Assembly (NCBI GenBank): GCA_016200485.1
Contig: JACQEP010000016.1
Span: 62,001-126,000, forward strand
DNA from: Gammaproteobacteria bacterium
Lineage (GTDB): Bacteria > Pseudomonadota > Gammaproteobacteria > Tenderiales > Tenderiaceae
Reading direction: 5' to 3'
DNA: 64,000 nucleotides
The translations under genes were made by a program, and so were the position numbers. Below, piece by piece: positions 27,848 to 37,127 of this stretch. How positions within the stretch are numbered: the stretch's first letter is position 1; each line of letters opens with the position of its first letter. The notes under the pieces are model-generated. The model did no database searches and was not told the origin of the DNA. It saw nothing but the letters and a program-made list of their open reading frames with translations.

Positions 27848-28603
27848 TCACCCGGCGTAGCCCAGCGCGGCCGAAACGCGTAGCCCGGCCTGTTTCACCC
27901 AGTCCACCCATTCCTGGCGCCAGCGCTCGATTGGCGCCGAGATCGAGAGTCCGGCCACCACTACACCGCTGCTATCGCGAATCACCACCCCGATGCAGCC
28001 GACGCCCAGCTCGGCCTCCTCGTTATCGAAGGCATAGCCGTCGCCGATGGCGCGCCGGGCCTCCTGCGCCAGGCTGTCGGCATCGGTGACGGTATTGGCG
28101 GTATAGCGCGGCAAACCGGTGCGTTGTGCATAATCGCGCACCGCCGCCTCACCCTGATCGCCCAGCATCAACTTGCCGACCGCGGTGACGTGCAGCGGGG
28201 CGCGGCTGCCGATGACCTGCTCGGCCCGCACCGCCCGCTTCGCCGTCATGCGCTCGACATAGACGACCTCGTCACCCTCGCGCACAGTCAGATTCACCGT
28301 CTCACCCACCTGGTCGCGCAGCCATTCCATCACCGGCCGCGCCTCGCCGCGCAGGTCAAGCCGCGAACGGACGCGATCCCCCCAACGCAACAGCCGGGCG
28401 CCGAGCCGGTAGTGGCCGGCCGGATCGCGATCGACCAGACCATGCCCGCCGAGCGAGGCCAGGATCCGGAAGGCGGTCGAGGGGTGGAGCCCGGTATCGG
28501 CCGCAATCAATTTCAGACTGAGGGGCTGATCGTGGCCCGCCAGTGTGTCGAGGATGGCAGCTGCCCGATCAATGACTTGGATTGGGGTAGTGATTTTGTC
28601 CAT
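27848..28603 (-). CDS. IclR-family transcriptional regulator
   Basis: 251 residues. The N-terminal winged helix (IQVIDRAAAILDTLAGHDQP, LHPSTAFRILASLGGHGLVD) is followed by an effector-binding GAF-like domain with GVGCIGVVIRDSSGVVVAGL. IclR proteins commonly control catabolism of aromatic or small organic acids. It diverges from the XFP/transketolase-like, DUF1537 kinase and glc genes and is their likely local regulator. The region before its ATG is an AT-rich dyad with no Shine-Dalgarno, so it may be leaderless or have a weak start. Confidence 0.92.
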   Translation of the reverse strand: MDKITTPIQVIDRAAAILDTLAGHDQPLSLKLIAADTGLHPSTAFRILASLGGHGLVDRDPAGHYRLGARLLRWGDRVRSRLDLRGEARPVMEWLRDQVGETVNLTVREGDEVVYVERMTAKRAVRAEQVIGSRAPLHVTAVGKLMLGDQGEAAVRDYAQRTGLPRYTANTVTDADSLAQEARRAIGDGYAFDNEEAELGVGCIGVVIRDSSGVVVAGLSISAPIERWRQEWVDWVKQAGLRVSAALGYAG

Positions 28604-28605
28604 AT

Positions 28606-28656
28606 TTCACATTATGAAAACGATTGTGTATTGTGAAATATTAGTCGATCGACTAA
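28606..28656. promoter_or_regulatory. Candidate IclR operator region with two palindromes
   Basis: TTTCACATTATGAAA (28606-28620) is a near-perfect dyad, and TATTGTGAAATA nearby repeats the half-site. TTAGTCGATCGACTAA (28641-28656) is a perfect 16-base palindrome. Both lie between the divergent iclR and TPP-enzyme genes. Confidence 0.6.
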
Positions 28657-28722
28657 TTTAATACAAGCCATCGATTATTCCGGGCGCTGGGTTTAGCGCC
28701 CCCTATTTGCCAGGAGACCCCC

Positions 28723-30927
28723 ATGTCCGCGATCCCGAAAGCCAAGACCGACGCCATCCCCGCCTTTTGCGCAGGCATCCAGCACTTCGGCGACACCTGG
28801 CCCGGCTTTGATCGTTACGCCAGCCAGGCGGCGATCGGCGCGGGTCAGGCCGCGATCACCAAGACGGACGACCAAGCCGTCTACCAGACGCTACTGGCTG
28901 CCGACGCTCTGCGCTACCTCACGCTGCAAGTGACCGGCGCCAAAGGCTCCGGTCATCCCGGCGGTTTTGCCTCCAGCGCCGAGGCCCATGCGGCGTTGAT
29001 CATGCTCGGCCACACCAACATTGTTACCGAGGTTGGCCACCATGCGCCCGGCTTTTATTCTTCGATGTTTCTCGACGGTTCGCTGGAGGAGATGGGCATC
29101 AAGACCATGACCGACATGATGGCCCGTTTCCGCGAGAAGCACGGGCTGCTCGGCCATCTTTCGGGGGCGATCCCGGGGCTGTTGGCGCCGGCGGGTCCAC
29201 TGGGGCAGGGCCAGCATTTCGCCATGGCGGGCGCGTTGTTGCATCCGGACAAATTGTTCCCGGTGACCATCGGCGACGGCGGCATGGGCGAGCCCTATGT
29301 CCTCAACAGCATGATGCACTTCCACACCGCTTATCCCAAAGTCACCAACTTCCTGCCGGTGCTGATCTGGAACGGTTATTCGCAGGAACACCACTCGATG
29401 GTATCGCGCATGACCAATGACGACATGGTCGCTTACTGGAAGGGGCATGGCTTTGACAACGTGATGCTGGTCAACGCCAAAGATTATGACGACAGCAATC
29501 AAAGCAGCGCCTATGCCGACAGCACCTATTTCGCTTTTGAAAAACGTCTGGCCTTTACCAAAGCGGTGCTGCAAGGCGTCGAGCTGGCGGCCAAATCGGC
29601 GCTCGGCGGCAAATTGACGGTGTTCATCATCAAACAGATGAAGGGCGCGGGCGTGCATGCCGTTGGCGCCAAGTCGCACAACTTGTATCCAAAGGATACG
29701 CTCGACCAGCCGCATATTATCGATGGACTGAAGCGCCGCGCCTTGACGCCTGCGGCGTGGCAAATCGTGCGCGACAATTTCAGCCGCGCCGGTGGCGGCC
29801 CGGCCGTGAAAACCGTGGTCACCGAATTCGAATTGGACATTGCGCCGCTGCCGAAGCTGGAAATGCAGGAGTTCAACAAGGGTGAACAGGCTGTTCCTGC
29901 CACGGCCATGGGCGCGCTGGTGGCGCAGATTGGCAAGGCCGATTCGCGTTTCGTCGTCACCAATGCCGACGGCAACGAAGCCTCGGCCATGAAGAACATT
30001 AATGATGCGCTGAAGATTCGTCATCCGACGGCCGATCCGCTCTACAATCAGGAACCGAATGGCCAGGTCTATGAACCGTTAAACGAAGACGCCTGTGCCG
30101 GTCTGGCCGCTGGTTTGGCATTATTCGGTTCGCGTGCGCTGTGGTTGTCTTATGAATCGTTCGCCATCAATGGCTGGCCGGTCATTCAGACCGTCACTCA
30201 GGCGATGGCAGAACTGCGCCGTAAAACGCCGTCAATCGTCACTATGTTTACCGCGGGCGCACTGGAACAGGGCCGCAACGGTTGGACGCATCAACGGCCG
30301 GAGATCGAAAATTATTTCGCCGCCATGATGCGCAACGGCAACGTCTATCCTTTGTTCCCCTGCGACGCCAACGCCATGCAAGTGGCTTATGAATACGCCA
30401 CCAACAGCGTCAACAAGGGCATGGTGCTGATCGCCTCCAAGAGCCCGCTGCCGGTGTACATGAGCTTGAGTGAAGCACGTCACGCCGTCGCGGAAGGCGC
30501 GGCCACGATCCATGAAAGCAAGTCCGGCACCAAGGGTACAGTGGTGTTCGCTGTCACCGGCGACATGGTTATGCTGCCGGTGTTTGCAGCCAAGGACCAA
30601 CTGGAAGCAGACGGTTATCGTGTGCGCATCGTGGCGGTGATCAATCCGCGCCGCCTCTATCGGCCGACGGATGTTGCCTGGGACACGGTTTCGGAACCGG
30701 ATAATAAATTCATGGCTGACGATCGCTTCAACGCGCTGTTCGATGGCGACACTCTGCTGGCGGTCAGCGGCGGCCCCAGTGCATCGCTGGAACCGGTACT
30801 GCTGCGCACTCGCGCGCCGAGGCGTGACGTGTTTTGCTGGAAACGTGGCGAAACCACGGCCTCGCCGGCGGAGATCATGGCATTCAACGGCATCACTGCC
30901 GAAGCGATGATTAAACGAGTACAGTAA
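28723..30927 (+). CDS. TPP-dependent transketolase/phosphoketolase-like enzyme
   Basis: 734 residues. The N-terminal TPP domain has GAKGSGHPGGFASSAEAHAA and the TPP/Mg motif TIGDGGMGEPYVLN followed by VLIWNGYSQEHHSM. The middle and C-terminal parts look more like phosphoketolase (XFP) than ordinary transketolase: NEDACAGLAAGLALFGSRAL, WLSYESFAINGWPVIQ, GRNGWTHQRPEIENYFAA, PCDANAMQVAYEY and SPLPVYMSLSEA. The expected activity is thiamine-dependent cleavage or transfer of a two-carbon ketol from a ketose (phosphate). Acetyl-phosphate formation is possible but unproven, and no ackA/pta is nearby. AGGAGA precedes the ATG. It is first in the unit with the DUF1537 kinase and glcDEF, and divergent from iclR. 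Confidence 0.8.
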   Translation: MSAIPKAKTDAIPAFCAGIQHFGDTWPGFDRYASQAAIGAGQAAITKTDDQAVYQTLLAADALRYLTLQVTGAKGSGHPGGFASSAEAHAALIMLGHTNIVTEVGHHAPGFYSSMFLDGSLEEMGIKTMTDMMARFREKHGLLGHLSGAIPGLLAPAGPLGQGQHFAMAGALLHPDKLFPVTIGDGGMGEPYVLNSMMHFHTAYPKVTNFLPVLIWNGYSQEHHSMVSRMTNDDMVAYWKGHGFDNVMLVNAKDYDDSNQSSAYADSTYFAFEKRLAFTKAVLQGVELAAKSALGGKLTVFIIKQMKGAGVHAVGAKSHNLYPKDTLDQPHIIDGLKRRALTPAAWQIVRDNFSRAGGGPAVKTVVTEFELDIAPLPKLEMQEFNKGEQAVPATAMGALVAQIGKADSRFVVTNADGNEASAMKNINDALKIRHPTADPLYNQEPNGQVYEPLNEDACAGLAAGLALFGSRALWLSYESFAINGWPVIQTVTQAMAELRRKTPSIVTMFTAGALEQGRNGWTHQRPEIENYFAAMMRNGNVYPLFPCDANAMQVAYEYATNSVNKGMVLIASKSPLPVYMSLSEARHAVAEGAATIHESKSGTKGTVVFAVTGDMVMLPVFAAKDQLEADGYRVRIVAVINPRRLYRPTDVAWDTVSEPDNKFMADDRFNALFDGDTLLAVSGGPSASLEPVLLRTRAPRRDVFCWKRGETTASPAEIMAFNGITAEAMIKRVQ

Positions 30928-30941
30928 TTGAGCTGATCACT

Positions 30942-30967
30942 GGCGGGTTATCGTGCGATAACCCGCC
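30942..30967. repeat. Perfect intergenic hairpin
   Basis: GGCGGGTTATCG (30942-30953) and CGATAACCCGCC (30956-30967) form a perfect 12-base stem with a TG loop and no T run. It lies between the TPP-enzyme and DUF1537 kinase genes and may modulate or stabilise the message. Confidence 0.75.
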
Positions 30968-30984: not shown

Positions 30985-32361
30985 ATGGCTACTACCAAAA
31001 TCGTTGTCTTGGACGACGACCCGACTGGCTCCCAGACGGTACACAGCTGCCTCCTGCTGACCCGCTGGGATACCGGCACGCTGACAGCGGCGCTGCAGGA
31101 CGCGGCGCCACTGTTCTTCGTGTTGACCAACACCCGCGGCATGGCGGCGAATCGCGCTGCTGCGGTTACGCGCGAGATATGCATTAATCTGCGCCTTGCG
31201 TTGGCGGCGCTGAAACAAGCGGGCACAGAAATCAATCCGATTCTGGTGAGCCGTTCCGACTCCACCCTGCGCGGCCACTATCCGGTGGAAACCGATGTCA
31301 TTGCCGAGGAACTGGGTCCGTTCGATGCGCATTTCCTGGTGCCCGCATTTTTTGAAGGTGGCCGCATTACCCGTGGCGGCGTTCACTATCTGCTTGTTGA
31401 TGGAAAACCGATACCGGTCCATGAAACGGAATTTGCCAAGGACTCGGTGTTTGGCTACAGCACTAGTTACCTGCCGGATTACGTTGCCGAAAAAACCGGT
31501 GGCCGGATTCAGGCCGATCAAGTCGAGCGCTTTCTGCTGAACGACATCCAAGGCAACATTCCTTCGCGCCTCCGCCGACTTGAAGGCAATACCTGCTGCG
31601 TCGTGGACGGTGAAAAACAAAGCGACCTCGACCGATTCGCGACGCATATCCAGACTGCCGCCACCGACGGTCAGCGTTTTTTATTTCGCAGCGCCGCCAG
31701 CCTGCTGACCTCGCTCGCCAAGCTGCCGCCACCATCGATCACTGCCGAACAAATGGCATCCTGTGTCCGTGATGGACAGGCCGGGGCAATTATCGTCGGC
31801 TCGCATGTCAAAAAAACCACCGCACAATTAAATATGCTGTTGCAGCAGCCGGGAACCGTCGCTATCGAAGTGGATGTCGACCGGATTGCCCGAGACCGTG
31901 ACAAATTGCTCCAAGAAACACTCGTCGCAGTTTCAACCGCGCACAATGAGGCACGAACGCCTGTGGTTTTCACTAGTCGCACCGAAAAGGCTTTTGCCGA
32001 TCAGCAGGCGCGACTCGCCTTCGGCGAACAGGTGTCGGCATTGCTCATGGACATAGTACGTAACTTGCCCCCAACGATTGGTTTTTTGATCAGCAAGGGC
32101 GGCATAACTTCTAACGACGTGTTAACTAACGGCCTGGCGTTGTCCACTTCACGCGTACTGGGGCAGATTCTGGCGGGCTGCTCGGTCATCCGTTGCCCAC
32201 AGGGTCATCCTCGCTTTCCGAATTTGCCGGTGGTCATCTTTCCCGGCAATGTTGGTGACGACAATGCATTGGCCACGGTCTATCAGCGCCTGACCATCCC
32301 CGCTGAAACAATCACGCCACGCGTCAGCCCCTGGCTCTATAAAAATGCAAAGCGCCATTGA
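30985..32361 (+). CDS. DUF1537 / four-carbon acid sugar kinase family protein
   Basis: 458 residues. The N-terminal domain has VLDDDPTGSQTVHSCLLL, NTRGMAANRAAAV and SRSDSTLRGHYPVE; the C-terminal nucleotide-binding domain has GFLISKGGITSNDVLTNG and PVVIFPGNVGDDNALATVY. The family is known to phosphorylate D-erythronate, D-threonate and related acid sugars at O4. Here the usual partners (PdxA2-type dehydrogenase, OtnC, OtnI, LtnD) are missing, and the gene sits between a TPP enzyme and glcDEF, so the substrate may differ. GGAGCG precedes the ATG. Confidence 0.85.
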   Translation: MATTKIVVLDDDPTGSQTVHSCLLLTRWDTGTLTAALQDAAPLFFVLTNTRGMAANRAAAVTREICINLRLALAALKQAGTEINPILVSRSDSTLRGHYPVETDVIAEELGPFDAHFLVPAFFEGGRITRGGVHYLLVDGKPIPVHETEFAKDSVFGYSTSYLPDYVAEKTGGRIQADQVERFLLNDIQGNIPSRLRRLEGNTCCVVDGEKQSDLDRFATHIQTAATDGQRFLFRSAASLLTSLAKLPPPSITAEQMASCVRDGQAGAIIVGSHVKKTTAQLNMLLQQPGTVAIEVDVDRIARDRDKLLQETLVAVSTAHNEARTPVVFTSRTEKAFADQQARLAFGEQVSALLMDIVRNLPPTIGFLISKGGITSNDVLTNGLALSTSRVLGQILAGCSVIRCPQGHPRFPNLPVVIFPGNVGDDNALATVYQRLTIPAETITPRVSPWLYKNAKRH

Positions 32362-32386: not shown

Positions 32387-32414
32387 GCAGGGGCGATTCA
32401 TGAATCGCCCCTGC
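32387..32414. repeat. Perfect 28-bp palindrome after DUF1537 gene
   Basis: GCAGGGGCGATTCA (32387-32400) is followed immediately by its exact complement to 32414, giving a 14-base self-complementary arm. There is no T run directly after; a short run follows at 32431. It is the same kind of unit as at 53666. Confidence 0.8.
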
Positions 32415-32469: not shown

Positions 32470-33954
32470 ATGGACAAGGAAAGGCCCGTCACACTGCGCC
32501 TCAACAAGGCTGAACTCGTCGCCGCGCTGCGCGGCATTTTGCCCGCGGACAGCATCTTGTATCAGGAAGAAGACCTGCGGCCATATGAATGCGATGGCCT
32601 CTCCGCCTATCGCCGTTTGCCATTGATTGTCGTCTTGCCAGACACCGTAGAGCAAGTTCAAAAGATAGTGCAGTTGTGTTATGAAAATGATGTGCCGGTC
32701 GTCGCGCGCGGCGCCGGCACCGGGCTTTCCGGCGGCGCGTTACCCCACAGCGAGGGTGTTCTGCTCAGTCTGGCGAAACTGAAATCGATTCTTAATCTTG
32801 ATCCGCTGGCACGCACGGCACGGGTACAGCCCGGCGTGCGCAACCTGACCATTTCGCAAGCGGCGGCAGCGCATGGTTTGTACTATGCGCCTGATCCTTC
32901 ATCACAGATTGCCTGCACCATCGGCGGCAATGTCGCCGAAAATTCGGGCGGTGTTCATTGTCTGAAGTATGGATTAACCGTTCACAACATCTTGCAGGTT
33001 AACCTCGTCACCATTGAAGGCGAACTGCTAACCATCGGCAGCGAGGCGCTCGATGCCCCCGGCTACGACCTGCTGGCCTTGATTACTGGTTCCGAAGGCA
33101 TGCTGGGCGTGATTGTCGAAGTAACCGTTCGATTGCTTCCGCAACCGGAACGGGCGCAAGTCGTGCTCGCCGCCTTTGACGACATCGAAAAGGCGGGCAC
33201 CGCTGTCGGCGCCGTCATCGCCGCGGGCATTATCCCTGCCGGTCTGGAAATGATGGACAAGCTCGCAATCAATGCCGCCGAGGATTTCGTTCATGCCGGT
33301 TATCCGCGCGGCGCCGAAGCCATTTTGTTGTGCGAACTGGACGGTACCAACGAGGAAGTCTCCGAACAGGTCATGCGGGTGCGTGAGCTCATGAACGAAT
33401 GCGGCGCCAGTGAAGTGCGCACCGCCAGGGACGAGGCCGAACGGACCATATTCTGGAAAGGCCGCAAGGCGGCTTTCCCCGCCGTCGGCCGCATTTCTCC
33501 GGATTATTACTGCATGGATGGCACCATCCCGCGCCAGCGGCTGCCTGAAGTGCTGCGCCGCATCCGCGAACTTTCTGATCACTACGGCCTTCCGGTGGCG
33601 AATGTCTTTCATGCAGGCGACGGCAATCTTCATCCACTGATTCTTTATGATGCCAATAATCCCGGCGAGTTTGAGCGCGCTGAGGTTTTCGGTGGCAAGA
33701 TTCTGGAAGCCTGTGTCGAGGTTGGCGGCACGATCACCGGCGAGCACGGTGTCGGCATGGAAAAAATCGATCAGATGTGCGTGCAATTCAACAGCGCCGA
33801 ACTGACGCAGTTTCACGCCATCAAGCACGCCTTTGACGGCAAGGCATTGCTCAACCCGGGCAAGGCGATACCGACATTGCACCGCTGCGCCGAATTTGGC
33901 GCCATGCATGTGCACCGTGGCCAACTGGCGTTTCCGGAACTGGACCGGTTTTAG
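32470..33954 (+). CDS. glcD: Glycolate oxidase FAD subunit GlcD
   Basis: 494 residues, FAD-linked oxidase. The FAD-binding domain shows VPVVARGAGTGLSGGALPHS, the Gly-rich DPSSQIACTIGGNVAENSGG, and LITGSEGMLGVIVEVTVRLL. The C-terminal substrate domain has VFHAGDGNLHPLILYD and the TGEHGVGMEK motif. With GlcE and GlcF it oxidises glycolate (or a similar D-2-hydroxy acid) to the keto acid at the membrane, passing electrons to quinone. It is followed by glcE after 6 bases. It lies 108 bases downstream of the DUF1537 gene, behind a palindrome, so it may have its own promoter or be part of a long operon. Confidence 0.95.
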   Translation: MDKERPVTLRLNKAELVAALRGILPADSILYQEEDLRPYECDGLSAYRRLPLIVVLPDTVEQVQKIVQLCYENDVPVVARGAGTGLSGGALPHSEGVLLSLAKLKSILNLDPLARTARVQPGVRNLTISQAAAAHGLYYAPDPSSQIACTIGGNVAENSGGVHCLKYGLTVHNILQVNLVTIEGELLTIGSEALDAPGYDLLALITGSEGMLGVIVEVTVRLLPQPERAQVVLAAFDDIEKAGTAVGAVIAAGIIPAGLEMMDKLAINAAEDFVHAGYPRGAEAILLCELDGTNEEVSEQVMRVRELMNECGASEVRTARDEAERTIFWKGRKAAFPAVGRISPDYYCMDGTIPRQRLPEVLRRIRELSDHYGLPVANVFHAGDGNLHPLILYDANNPGEFERAEVFGGKILEACVEVGGTITGEHGVGMEKIDQMCVQFNSAELTQFHAIKHAFDGKALLNPGKAIPTLHRCAEFGAMHVHRGQLAFPELDRF

Positions 33955-33960
33955 CGCGGC

Positions 33961-35019
33961 ATGACAGACATCGCTGACAGACTGCAACAACACGTCGCCG
34001 CCGCTATTGGCGACAGAACTCCGCTGCATATTATCGGAGGTGGCAGCAAACAATTCCTCGGCCGCCACGTTGACGGCCAGGCACTGCCGGTCAGCGGCCA
34101 TCGCGGCATCGTCAGCCATGAACCCACCGAACTGGTGATCACCGCGCGTGCCGGCACACCCTTGCATGAAATTAATGACGCGCTGACCGAACAGCGGCAA
34201 ATGCTGCCTTTCGAGCCACCGCGATTTGGCGATAGCGCGACGCTTGGCGGCACCATCGCCTGCGGCCTCTCCGGCCCGCGCCGCCCGTATGCCGGCGCCG
34301 CCCGCGACTTTGTACTCGGCTGCCGCATGATTAATGGCAAAGGCGAGATACTGCATTTCGGCGGCGAAGTGATGAAAAATGTCGCCGGCTACGATGCGGC
34401 TCGTCTGATGGCAGGCGCATTCGGCACACTTGGCGTGCTGCTCGACATCAGCTTGAAAGTACTGCCACGCCCCGAAGCCGAGATCACACTGATACAAGAA
34501 TGCACCGCCACCGAAGCCATCGTATTGATGAACACCTATGCCGGAAGGCCGCTGCCGTTGTCTGCCACTTGTTTTAATGAGGGACGGCTTTATGTGCGTC
34601 TTTCAGGGACTCATAGCGCCGTCAATCCCAGCATCGACAAGCTCGGCGGAGAAACGCTGGCCGACAGCGCAACGTTTTGGCGCGATCTCCGTGAACAAAC
34701 ACTACCGTTCTTCGCTGGCAGTGCGCGACTGTGGCGCGTGTCTGTGCCATCTTCTTCACCACCATTGGCACTTCCGGGCCACTGGTTGCTGGAATGGGGC
34801 GGAGCGCAACGCTGGCTGATCAGTGACGCCGATCCGGAAAATGTGCGCCAATACGCCACCAACGTCGGCGGCCACGCGACACTATTTCGCAACGGCAATC
34901 GTCGTTCCGAGATATTTCAGCCGCTGGCGCCCGGCCTGCTTCGTTTGCACCACAAGTTGAAGCAGGCCTTCGATCCGCTCGGGCTGTTCAATCCCGGCCG
35001 CATGTACCCAGGGCTGTAA
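33961..35019 (+). CDS. glcE: Glycolate oxidase subunit GlcE
   Basis: 352 residues, second FAD-binding (PCMH-type) subunit of the glycolate oxidase complex. Features: HIIGGGSKQFLGRHVDGQAL, PPRFGDSATLGGTIACGLSG, GEVMKNVAGYDAARLMAGAF and the C-terminal FDPLGLFNPGRMYPGL. It lacks the longer C-terminal domain of GlcD. It is 6 bases from both glcD and glcF, so all three are cotranscribed. Confidence 0.93.
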   Translation: MTDIADRLQQHVAAAIGDRTPLHIIGGGSKQFLGRHVDGQALPVSGHRGIVSHEPTELVITARAGTPLHEINDALTEQRQMLPFEPPRFGDSATLGGTIACGLSGPRRPYAGAARDFVLGCRMINGKGEILHFGGEVMKNVAGYDAARLMAGAFGTLGVLLDISLKVLPRPEAEITLIQECTATEAIVLMNTYAGRPLPLSATCFNEGRLYVRLSGTHSAVNPSIDKLGGETLADSATFWRDLREQTLPFFAGSARLWRVSVPSSSPPLALPGHWLLEWGGAQRWLISDADPENVRQYATNVGGHATLFRNGNRRSEIFQPLAPGLLRLHHKLKQAFDPLGLFNPGRMYPGL

Positions 35020-35025
35020 CACATC

Positions 35026-36240
35026 ATGCAAACGTCACTGACCGAACAATTCAAAGCCACCGCCGAAGGACAGGAAGCGGAATCAATCTTACGTGCATGC
35101 GTGCATTGCGGATTTTGTACTGCGACATGCCCGACTTACCAATTGCTCGGCGATGAACTCGATGGGCCAAGAGGCCGTATTTATTTGATCAAGCAAGTGC
35201 TGGAGGGCAAGGAAATTAGCGCCAAGACGCAAACTCATCTTGATCGCTGCCTGACCTGTCGCTCCTGTGAAACGACCTGCCCATCGGGGGTGCGTTACGG
35301 ACGTCTGATCGACATTGGCCGTCACGTTGTCGAACAGCAAGTACCGCGGCCACTGGCGGAGCGAGTCCTGCGCCGCACCTTGCGCACATTGATACCTTTC
35401 CGCCAACGCTTTGGGACATTGGTAAAACTGGGTCAAACCTTTTCCCCACTGCTGCCGCAGCGCCTGCGCCAGAAAATTCCGGCAATGCCGACTGCCACCG
35501 CATGGCCGATGACGACGCATGCCCGCAAGATGCTGGTGCTCGACGGTTGTGTGCAACCCATCACCGCGCCCAACACCAATGCCGCGGCCGCGCGCGTGCT
35601 CGACCGGCTTGGCATTCAGTTGATTCGCGCCGCCGGGGCGGGCTGCTGCGGTGCGCTCAGCCAGCATTTGTCGGCACCCGAAGAGGCGAGCGGCTTCATG
35701 CGCCGCAACATCGATGCCTGGTGGCCACATGTCGAGACAGGCGTTGAAGCACTGGTGATGACCGCCAGCGGTTGCGGCACCCTGGTCAAGGATTACGGCG
35801 AAATACTCAAATACGATGTAAACTACGCCGCCAAGGCGGCGCGAATCTCCAGCCTGACCAAAGACATCAGCGAAGTACTCGCCGTGGAAGATTTATCACG
35901 GCTGCAAAAGAACCTGGACGCAACCAGGATCGCCTACCATGCGCCCTGCACCCTGCAACATGGACAAAAGATCAATGGCATCGTTGAAAAGATACTGAGC
36001 ATAGCGGGTTATGAACTAACGCCGGCGGCCGATAGCCATCTCTGTTGTGGTTCCGCCGGAACCTATTCGATTTTGCAACCTCAGCTATCACAACGACTGC
36101 TCGACAACAAACTTCAGTCGCTGGACGCAGGCAAACCTGACTGTATCGCCACCGCCAATATCGGCTGCCAGATGCACCTGGCCAGCAAATCCACCGTGCC
36201 CGTCAAACACTGGATTGAGTTGCTTGATGCACCACGTTAG
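35026..36240 (+). CDS. glcF: Glycolate oxidase iron-sulfur subunit GlcF
   Basis: 404 residues. Two 4Fe-4S ferredoxin motifs are visible near the N-terminus (CVHCGFCTATCPTYQLLGDE and CLTCRSCETTCPSGVRYGRL), followed by two cysteine-rich CCG domains (AAGAGCCGALSQHL and DSHLCCGSAGTYSIL). It relays electrons from the FAD subunits to the quinone pool. The last bases overlap the convergent NMT1/THI5-like gene by 4 bases. Confidence 0.95.
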   Translation: MQTSLTEQFKATAEGQEAESILRACVHCGFCTATCPTYQLLGDELDGPRGRIYLIKQVLEGKEISAKTQTHLDRCLTCRSCETTCPSGVRYGRLIDIGRHVVEQQVPRPLAERVLRRTLRTLIPFRQRFGTLVKLGQTFSPLLPQRLRQKIPAMPTATAWPMTTHARKMLVLDGCVQPITAPNTNAAAARVLDRLGIQLIRAAGAGCCGALSQHLSAPEEASGFMRRNIDAWWPHVETGVEALVMTASGCGTLVKDYGEILKYDVNYAAKAARISSLTKDISEVLAVEDLSRLQKNLDATRIAYHAPCTLQHGQKINGIVEKILSIAGYELTPAADSHLCCGSAGTYSILQPQLSQRLLDNKLQSLDAGKPDCIATANIGCQMHLASKSTVPVKHWIELLDAPR

Positions 36241-37127
36241 TCTGGTGGCGACACGATTGCGGCGTCATAGTCAAAACGGCGGCTGATCGCACCGCTGAAC
36301 TGAAATACATCCAGCAATCGCTCATACGCTGCCCTATTGATTACCGGATCGGCCATCCAACAGCCCAATTGCTGATAAGCAGCAATGGTCGCTGTTAACA
36401 CCGCGTGATCGATGTCCGGGAAAAATCCGGCTTCGGCCTCGCACGCGGCGATTTCTACCGCTGGCGCGCTAATCACATAGGCCTGTGCACGACGATAAGC
36501 ACGCATGAAGGCATGGGCCTTGTCGGTCTGCAACCAATCGCGTCTGGCGCAGAGACTACTGAACGCCACCGGCCCCACGACATCACCGACCGCAGCGACT
36601 ACATGGCCGATACCTTCATGTTGCAACTGCTGCGGCACCGGCCCCTGCATGTGGACATAGTCGGCCTTGCCGTCGCGGAAGGCGCGTTCAATCGCTGTTA
36701 CATCACCGGCATCAATGGCCTCGATGCTGGAGAATTCAACACCCCGCTGCTGCAGCGCATACTTGAACATCGCCAATGGCTGGAAAAAATGATCCACCAA
36801 TACCCGTTTGCCTCGCAACTTATCCCAGGTGAACTTCGTATTCGGCTGACGCCCCGCAATAAAAAAGCCGTCTCGTTCATTGATCTGGGCGAAGTGTACG
36901 ATCTCAAGCAGCACGCCGCGCTCAAGATCGGCAAAGCTGGTCGCCACCGCCGATTGCGCTAAATCGCAACTCCCGTCCATCAAGCTCGCCGGCACCGTAC
37001 GCGAGGGGGTCGCGACGGTGTATCTCGGTTCCAGTCCTTCGGCGGCGAGAAATCCGCCGGCAATGGTCAGCAGTAGCGGACTATAAAACGCCGAGTGACG
37101 TAAGGCCATGATATTTATCTGCGACAT
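36237..37127 (-). CDS. NMT1/THI5-like substrate-binding protein without signal peptide
   Basis: 296 residues. Family features: ALRHSAFYSPLLLTIAGGFL at the N-terminus, DLAQSAVATSFADLERG, and a C-terminal lobe with FMRAYRRAQAYVISA. Such proteins normally bind a small molecule for an ABC importer or form an HMP precursor (Thi5). This one starts directly with the binding-fold strand and has no secretion signal or lipobox, and no permease or ATPase gene is adjacent, so a cytoplasmic sensor or enzyme is possible. It converges on glcF. Upstream it is preceded by the 37249-37352 repeat. Confidence 0.78.
   Translation of the reverse strand: MSQINIMALRHSAFYSPLLLTIAGGFLAAEGLEPRYTVATPSRTVPASLMDGSCDLAQSAVATSFADLERGVLLEIVHFAQINERDGFFIAGRQPNTKFTWDKLRGKRVLVDHFFQPLAMFKYALQQRGVEFSSIEAIDAGDVTAIERAFRDGKADYVHMQGPVPQQLQHEGIGHVVAAVGDVVGPVAFSSLCARRDWLQTDKAHAFMRAYRRAQAYVISAPAVEIAACEAEAGFFPDIDHAVLTATIAAYQQLGCWMADPVINRAAYERLLDVFQFSGAISRRFDYDAAIVSPPD

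Follow-up and report, generated by a model that had tools for sequence, protein, structure and literature searches.

The locus described here raises the question of what reaction is catalysed by a TPP-dependent enzyme that recalls both transketolase and phosphoketolase (XFP), and of why its gene heads an operon for glycolate oxidation. The gene (28723..30927, + strand) lies in a 64 kb stretch of gammaproteobacterial DNA, referred to below as the window. It runs from ATG to stop through 734 codons with no internal stops. A preliminary description, made from the sequence, had reported a 734-residue product and five motifs, and all of these were recovered: GHPGG at residues 77–81, SYESF at 476–480, RNGWTHQ at 518–524, PCDANAMQ at 546–553 and SPLPVYMSL at 574–582. 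From the ORF, Pfam, NCBIfam, alignment, residue, fold and tree data presented below, the product is regarded as a ketolase-like enzyme of its own family, tentatively sister to XFP and of the type represented by Synechocystis sll0529.

Sequence, fold and phylogeny of the TPP enzyme

Pfam matches to the enzyme were weak but above the gathering scores (XFP 4e-13, XFP_N 6e-13, Transket_pyr 8e-9 and XFP_C 3e-6), and all three domains of the XFP architecture (PF09364, PF03894 and PF09363) were recognised at this weak level. The more specific NCBIfam models gave scores well below their cut-offs. The best phosphoketolase model reached 122.5 bits, against cut-offs of 777 to 1518, and no transketolase model exceeded 53 bits, against cut-offs of at least 488. 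The genome from which the window derives encodes a true XFP elsewhere (1502 bits; cut-off 962), adjoining a gene of the acetate kinase family, and a separate transketolase as well. The low scores and the presence of these two other genes indicate that the TPP gene is neither the phosphoketolase nor the transketolase of its genome.

Relatives were sought in genomes representing one species each, which yielded 140 related places. The best 80 of these were mostly from gammaproteobacteria (approximately 74–86% identity) and cyanobacteria (62–67%), and included two Thiobacillus MAGs with approximately 65% identity. Forty-one homologues from gammaproteobacteria and cyanobacteria could be aligned over their full length, at 62–86% identity and with more than 200 invariant columns. 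The intact ORF and these full-length homologues rule out a pseudogene or frame artefact. A search of plasmids revealed no close relatives of the gene, but only distant proteins of the phosphoketolase family. One distant XFP-like TPP protein, a 785-aa ORF (locus L121, contig G007:C38) with 26% identity to the query over 248 residues, seems to be without several XFP active-site residues and possibly represents another unassigned ketolase family.

A quick maximum-likelihood tree was constructed from the TPP family, XFP and transketolase, with DXS and AceE added. Two sequences that are not genuine XFPs (XFP_G352cy and XFP_G007) were excluded from the tree; they are present among the XFP rows of the residue alignment. 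Separate groups were obtained for the TPP family (SH-aLRT 96), XFP (99) and transketolase (99), and the TPP family and XFP together were split from the remaining sequences (99). These values argue firmly that the TPP family is separate from both XFP and transketolase. The sister relation to XFP is tentative, since the branches are long and identity is below 20%. The preliminary description had suggested a clade of its own with no assigned reaction, and had named such a tree as the check: the family falls outside the XFP and transketolase groups with its catalytic residues kept. Its own group in the tree, its failure to reach the NCBIfam cut-offs and the separate XFP and transketolase of the genome all bear out that suggestion. 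The term ‘intermediate’, also used there, is better replaced by ‘sister to XFP’, within the limits of a tree built at less than 20% identity.

An AlphaFold2 model of the enzyme had a mean pLDDT of 84 and a pTM of 0.86, with the active-site loop at residues 512–526 poorly predicted. In structure comparisons, including Foldseek, the best fold match was to XFP (Z 36.8, 653 residues aligned, spanning residues 46–734), followed by transketolase (Z 30.0) and then pyruvate dehydrogenase E1. The enzyme had been described as having a transketolase N-terminus and a phosphoketolase C-terminus. It is apparent that the GHPGG motif is indeed transketolase-like, but the strongest sequence matches and the predicted fold as a whole are nearer to XFP.

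Membership of the transketolase family is ruled out by the scores, residues and tree, and membership of the phosphoketolase family by the NCBIfam scores, tree and gene context. It is therefore very probable that the identity of an ordinary phosphoketolase does not apply to this enzyme. Release of acetyl phosphate from ketose phosphates, if assayed, would be expected to be negative or a secondary activity.

Active-site residues

Alignment with XFP and transketolase showed that H78, H106, H145, E455 (the TPP glutamate) and H523 are kept in the TPP family. The equivalents of XFP H64, H97, H142, E479, Y501, N549 and H553 (H78, H106, H145, E455, Y477, N519 and H523, respectively) are invariant. Four residues, Y477, Q516, N519 and K573, are of the XFP type (Y501, Q546, N549 and K605) rather than the transketolase type. 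Three transketolase residues, R359, H469 and R528 in the yeast numbering, hold the substrate phosphate. Neither this clamp nor D477 is kept, the corresponding positions in the TPP family being T394/A395, A511/G512, F545 and N519.

In XFP, the main basic residues close to the phosphate of the substrate are R442 and K605 (PMC10547157), and H64, Y501 and N549 have been assigned to the attacking phosphate (PMC6435721). Of the R442/K605 pair, the TPP family retains the lysine (K573), and the R442 site is occupied by A/G or I/M, whichever alignment register is used. Two arginines invariant across the family, R518 (His548 in XFP, Glu in transketolase) and R525, lie beside the catalytic N519 and H523. 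Judged from these substitutions, the enzyme may be a TPP ketolase whose preference has shifted from sugar phosphate to a carboxylate. It may still dehydrate and phosphorolyse, since Y477, Q516, N519 and K573 correspond to residues of the XFP phosphate-nucleophile site.

The operon, its regulator and its variants

The gene order in the window is a divergent IclR-family regulator, the TPP enzyme, a DUF1537 kinase, GlcD, GlcE and GlcF, and this order recurs in most gammaproteobacterial loci for which enough sequence was available. The three subunits of glycolate oxidase are encoded on the + strand. GlcE (33961..35019; NF008439, 525 bits, cut-off 284) and GlcF, the iron–sulfur subunit (35026..36240; NF008434, 670 bits, cut-off 333), exceed their cut-offs; the GlcD-type FAD subunit (32470..33954), a neighbour in most gammaproteobacterial loci, falls just under its own (NF008408, 870 bits, cut-off 897). 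Convergent at the end of the operon (36237–37127) is a gene for an NMT1/THI5-like protein of the thiamine-precursor or substrate-binding type. It could relate to thiamine supply; its conservation beside the operon was not seen.

The operon varies among species. At some gammaproteobacterial loci, TRAP transporter genes lie between the kinase gene and glcDEF, or replace the latter. A class II aldolase resembling fructose-bisphosphate aldolase (FBA) follows the kinase in L014, L031 and G263; its gene is missing from most loci. In G132, a remnant of this aldolase gene with internal stops lies directly after the kinase (L172, 8662–8922), and it was therefore an accessory gene lost there. In the operon of G241 (L162, 410–8608), malate synthase A directly follows the kinase, and GlcDEF was not found. 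Where GlcDEF would be expected, the operon instead encodes malate synthase A, a TRAP transporter and a protein similar to the C-terminal portion of LdhH (lactate dehydrogenase).

The regulator (27848..28603, − strand) is BhcR/AllR-like. Its best NCBIfam match was BhcR (178 bits), under the equivalog cut-off of 350, and it matched an AllR structure, aligning with AllR of Escherichia coli. The ligand Asp and Ser-x-Ser positions of IclR are retained, and the gene is the divergent neighbour in nearly all of the gammaproteobacterial loci. BhcR, AllR and IclR all respond to glyoxylate (PMC11323563).

Comparison of the divergent regions revealed a putative conserved operator, TTTCACATTATGAAA (28605..28619), upstream of the TPP gene and the sole copy of this type of site in the window. 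Its consensus, TTTCAYANTRTGAAA, when allowed no more than one mismatch, was found in 38 of the 45 divergent regions, often twice and approximately 115 bp apart, and once in 708,511 flanking bases; the pattern was derived from the same divergent regions in which it was counted, so that the contrast with the flanking bases, rather than the count, constitutes the evidence. The same divergent region contains a perfect 18 bp palindrome, ATTAGTCGATCGACTAAT (28640..28657), which was not seen as a feature common to the other loci.

The DUF1537 kinase as partner of the TPP enzyme

The gene following that of the TPP enzyme (30985..32361, + strand) encodes a sugar-acid kinase of the DUF1537 family, with SBD_N (2e-57, 195 bits) and NBD_C (2e-38, 133 bits) domains above the Pfam cut-offs. 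The D-threonate kinase model, the only kinase model listed for this family, gave 69 bits against a cut-off of 450, and because this score is so far below the cut-off, the sequence does not fix the substrate of the kinase. A phmmer search of solved structures gave no match at 1e-5. Of the outside relatives examined, the nearest one with annotated neighbours, from Deinococcus (40% identity), lies in a run of genes that also includes a class II (FBA-like) aldolase and an NAD(P)-dependent oxidoreductase. DUF1537 kinases are reported to phosphorylate 3-oxo- and 2-oxo-tetronates, and OtnC proteins of the Aldolase_II or F_bP_aldolase type to decarboxylate the resulting oxo-tetronate phosphates to DHAP (PMC12540250). 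Among the papers searched, none links DUF1537, phosphoketolase and glycolate, and none connects sll0529 with either a DUF1537 kinase or glycolate.

The TPP family was present in 21 of 274 gammaproteobacterial genomes, and an adjacent kinase orthologue (at least 60% identity) was found in the same 21. Two further matches at this threshold were a copy at the start of a contig (G233) and a fragment (G170). Among 35 cyanobacterial TPP carriers chosen for analysis, 34 have the kinase too, usually at a separate locus. In a sample of 194 cyanobacterial genomes, 69 contained both genes, one the TPP gene only, three the kinase only and 121 neither. Fisher tests of co-occurrence gave 1e-47 and 2e-29, and since such tests ignore shared ancestry, the joint yet unlinked presence of the two genes in cyanobacteria is the stronger argument for a partnership. 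No shared neighbour was found for the unlinked cyanobacterial copies of the TPP gene.

Two inverted repeats were also observed in this part of the operon. A perfect one, GGCGGGTTATCG-TG-CGATAACCCGCC, lies between the TPP and kinase genes (30942–30967), and a perfect palindrome, GCAGGGGCGATTCATGAATCGCCCCTGC, lies between the kinase gene and glcD (32387–32414). Either may be a REP-like element or a processing hairpin.

Relationship to Synechocystis sll0529

The TPP gene of Synechocystis salina (L069) is preceded by one for a site-2 protease with a CBS domain. In Synechocystis PCC 6803, sll0529 adjoins sll0528 (PMC4632739), to which that paper refers as a site-2 protease. Because a site-2 protease is the neighbour in both cases, it is very likely by synteny that sll0529 (pket2/xfp2) is a member of the TPP family. 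In the literature, sll0529 has been assigned as a phosphoketolase by homology (PMC7744508, PMC11257934, PMC9034593). It was proposed as a second phosphoketolase whose activity needs verification (PMC7744508), and has been deleted together with slr0453 (PMC9034593). Its transcript hardly changed with CO2 (1.10-fold) in data cited by PMC7744508.

S. salina also has two full-length phosphoketolases that exceed NCBIfam cut-offs (L126, 366–2783; L127, 93–2609), besides the sll0529-type gene. Incomplete duplicates of the 3′ portion of the TPP gene were also noticed in cyanobacteria (L176, 3738–3884 and 8736–8870; L177, 2042–2188; L178, 4101–4355). These are approximately 45–86 codons long and lie 1–10 kb downstream of the intact gene; between them are genes resembling those for PIN-domain toxins, Abi-like proteins, a DNA methylase, transposases and a replication-like protein. 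Defence or plasmid-like islands thus seem to integrate preferentially at the 3′ end of this gene.

Carriers of the TPP gene

The carriers of the TPP gene are Calvin-cycle autotrophs. The Rubisco large subunit was found in 20 of the 21 gammaproteobacterial carriers, the exception being an 86%-complete genome, as compared with 122 of the 253 other genomes; two Rubisco genes are present in the genome of the window. That genome has no glyoxylate carboligase (Gcl) above the cut-off (best score 344 bits; cut-off 711), and malate synthase, absent from 17 of the 21 carriers, was not found in it. Of the possible glyoxylate sinks, the search covered Gcl and malate synthase; with neither enzyme, another one would be useful. 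The identity of the TPP family and its link to glycolate are well supported, and the TPP/kinase module probably has a role in the handling of glycolate or glyoxylate.

A proposed route for glyoxylate and its alternatives

We infer the substrates and products that follow glycolate oxidation, and the ligand of the regulator, as follows. The 2-phosphoglycolate formed by Rubisco would be converted to glycolate, which GlcDEF would oxidize to glyoxylate. The TPP enzyme would transfer a two-carbon ketol from a ketose phosphate of the Calvin cycle, such as xylulose 5-phosphate, to glyoxylate, giving 3-oxotetronate (2,4-dihydroxy-3-oxobutanoate). The DUF1537 kinase would phosphorylate this at C4, and the product, 3-oxotetronate 4-phosphate, a β-keto acid, would lose CO2 to yield DHAP, either spontaneously or by the action of an FBA-like decarboxylase, for which some genomes have a gene next to that of the kinase. 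The net reaction would be glyoxylate + xylulose 5-phosphate + ATP → GAP + DHAP + CO2 + ADP, with the BhcR-like regulator acting as a glyoxylate sensor.

Ketol transfer to glyoxylate links all of the genes of the operon, including the aldolase of some genomes. Several observations fit it less well: the retained residues for phosphate attack are those of XFP; the loss of phosphate-binding residues suits a ketose-phosphate donor poorly, unless K573 or others substitute; only half of the glyoxylate carbon would be saved; most loci are without the FBA-like gene; and neither the kinase score nor the near-constant sll0529 transcript speaks for such a route. A probability of about 0.5 is therefore assigned to a two-enzyme module that returns glyoxylate to triose phosphate by these steps, in view of the XFP-like attack residues, the absence of the phosphate clamp and the limited recovery of carbon. 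The near-constant joint occurrence of the two genes in CO2-fixing bacteria suggests an undescribed recycling of a waste product of Rubisco. We put forward more tentatively that this is a natural, previously undescribed phosphoglycolate-salvage (photorespiratory) route of cyanobacteria and chemolithoautotrophic gammaproteobacteria, with a new TPP specificity, that of a glyoxylate ketoltransferase.

The enzyme might instead cleave a carboxylated ketose (for example 3-oxotetronate, or an acid derived from threonate or from a product of Rubisco misfiring) in the manner of a phosphoketolase, to acetyl phosphate and glyoxylate or similar products, with the kinase as a parallel branch acting on the same acid. 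The XFP-type Y477, Q516, N519 and K573 are in accord with this, as are the proximity of fold and tree to XFP and the gained arginines, which suit a carboxylate. A kinase that competes for the same substrate, however, leaves the near-perfect pairing unexplained; the gammaproteobacterial loci showed no recognisable neighbour of acetate kinase or Pta type, in contrast to the true XFP with its neighbour of the acetate kinase family; and such acids have no known source across these autotrophs. This reaction is considered unlikely.

Less likely still is an additional, divergent phosphoketolase acting on xylulose 5-phosphate or fructose 6-phosphate, the identity implied by the annotation of sll0529. 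The XFP Pfam domains, the kept catalytic residues and the published assignment by homology would all be accommodated. The family nevertheless scores far under every NCBIfam phosphoketolase cut-off, several of which are passed by true XFPs in the same genomes, lies outside the XFP clade and has lost R442 and other sugar-phosphate contacts. Its partners are glycolate oxidase and a sugar-acid kinase instead of acetate kinase, and even the source of the proposal (PMC7744508) calls the activity unverified.

An analogue of glyoxylate carboligase, in which glyoxylate serves as both (decarboxylated) donor and acceptor to give tartronate semialdehyde, and DUF1537 phosphorylates that product or its isomer hydroxypyruvate, would account for a genome with glycolate oxidase and no Gcl above the cut-off, as well as for the arginines, which suit glyoxylate, and the type of regulator. 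Gcl belongs to a family of 2-keto acid decarboxylating enzymes whose domain order differs from that of the transketolase/XFP class. The fold of the TPP enzyme is of the latter class, in which donors are normally ketols, and the known substrates of DUF1537 kinases are larger sugar acids, so that we regard this analogue as improbable. Finally, degradation of four-carbon sugar acids (threonate, erythronate), whether taken up or made in the cell, with the neighbouring oxidase acting on a sugar acid rather than glycolate, would agree with the history of the DUF1537 family and with the transporter genes (TRAP or ABC) of some loci, but has only a slight chance of being correct, given that an LtnD-like dehydrogenase could not be recognised in the operons of the carriers, that GlcE and GlcF pass glycolate oxidase cut-offs, that one operon has malate synthase and that carriers are limited to Calvin-cycle organisms, photoautotrophs included.

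If ketol transfer to glyoxylate is the true reaction, model cyanobacteria possess a step for recycling glyoxylate which has been treated as phosphoketolase both in flux models and in xfp1 xfp2 double-knockout strains, and those flux assignments and phenotypes would then have to be re-examined. A short, reductant-free bypass of one TPP enzyme and one kinase would be added to the parts available for engineering photorespiration, and the orphan cyanobacterial DUF1537 kinase would be given a role. Should the reaction prove to be another, the strict pairing with the kinase would still open this long-neglected gene to direct tests.

Comparison with known systems

With XFP (EC 4.1.2.9/4.1.2.22; Bifidobacterium structures 3AHC and 3AI7, cyanobacterial structure 8IO8) the TPP enzyme shares its fold, the TPP glutamate, the active-site histidines and equivalents of Tyr501, Gln546, Asn549 and Lys605. 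It differs in having only 17–18% identity, in being approximately 55–110 residues shorter, in having R518 for His548, in its separate clade, in the loss of Arg442 and other sugar-phosphate contacts, and in a gene that is not beside acetate kinase. The SGHPGG motif, active-site histidines, GPLGQG loop and domain order are those of transketolase (EC 2.2.1.1), but the R359/H469/R528 clamp is absent, and N519 and Tyr477 replace Asp477 and Phe, respectively. Synechocystis sll0529, of the same family by synteny, carries a phosphoketolase annotation assigned by homology, and in most cyanobacteria the kinase is unlinked.

The DUF1537 kinase, the FBA-like aldolase of some carriers and the predicted DHAP end product are held in common with the LtnD/OtnK (DUF1537)/OtnC (F_bP_aldolase or Aldolase_II) pathway of L-threonate catabolism, in which a dehydrogenase stands where the TPP enzyme would be the source of the oxo-tetronate. 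Like the glycerate pathway (Gcl–TSR), the malate cycle and the β-hydroxyaspartate cycle, the module of the window is situated downstream of glycolate oxidase, would draw on Rubisco-derived glyoxylate and has a BhcR-like regulator. Its enzymes and proposed intermediates, however, differ from those of all three.
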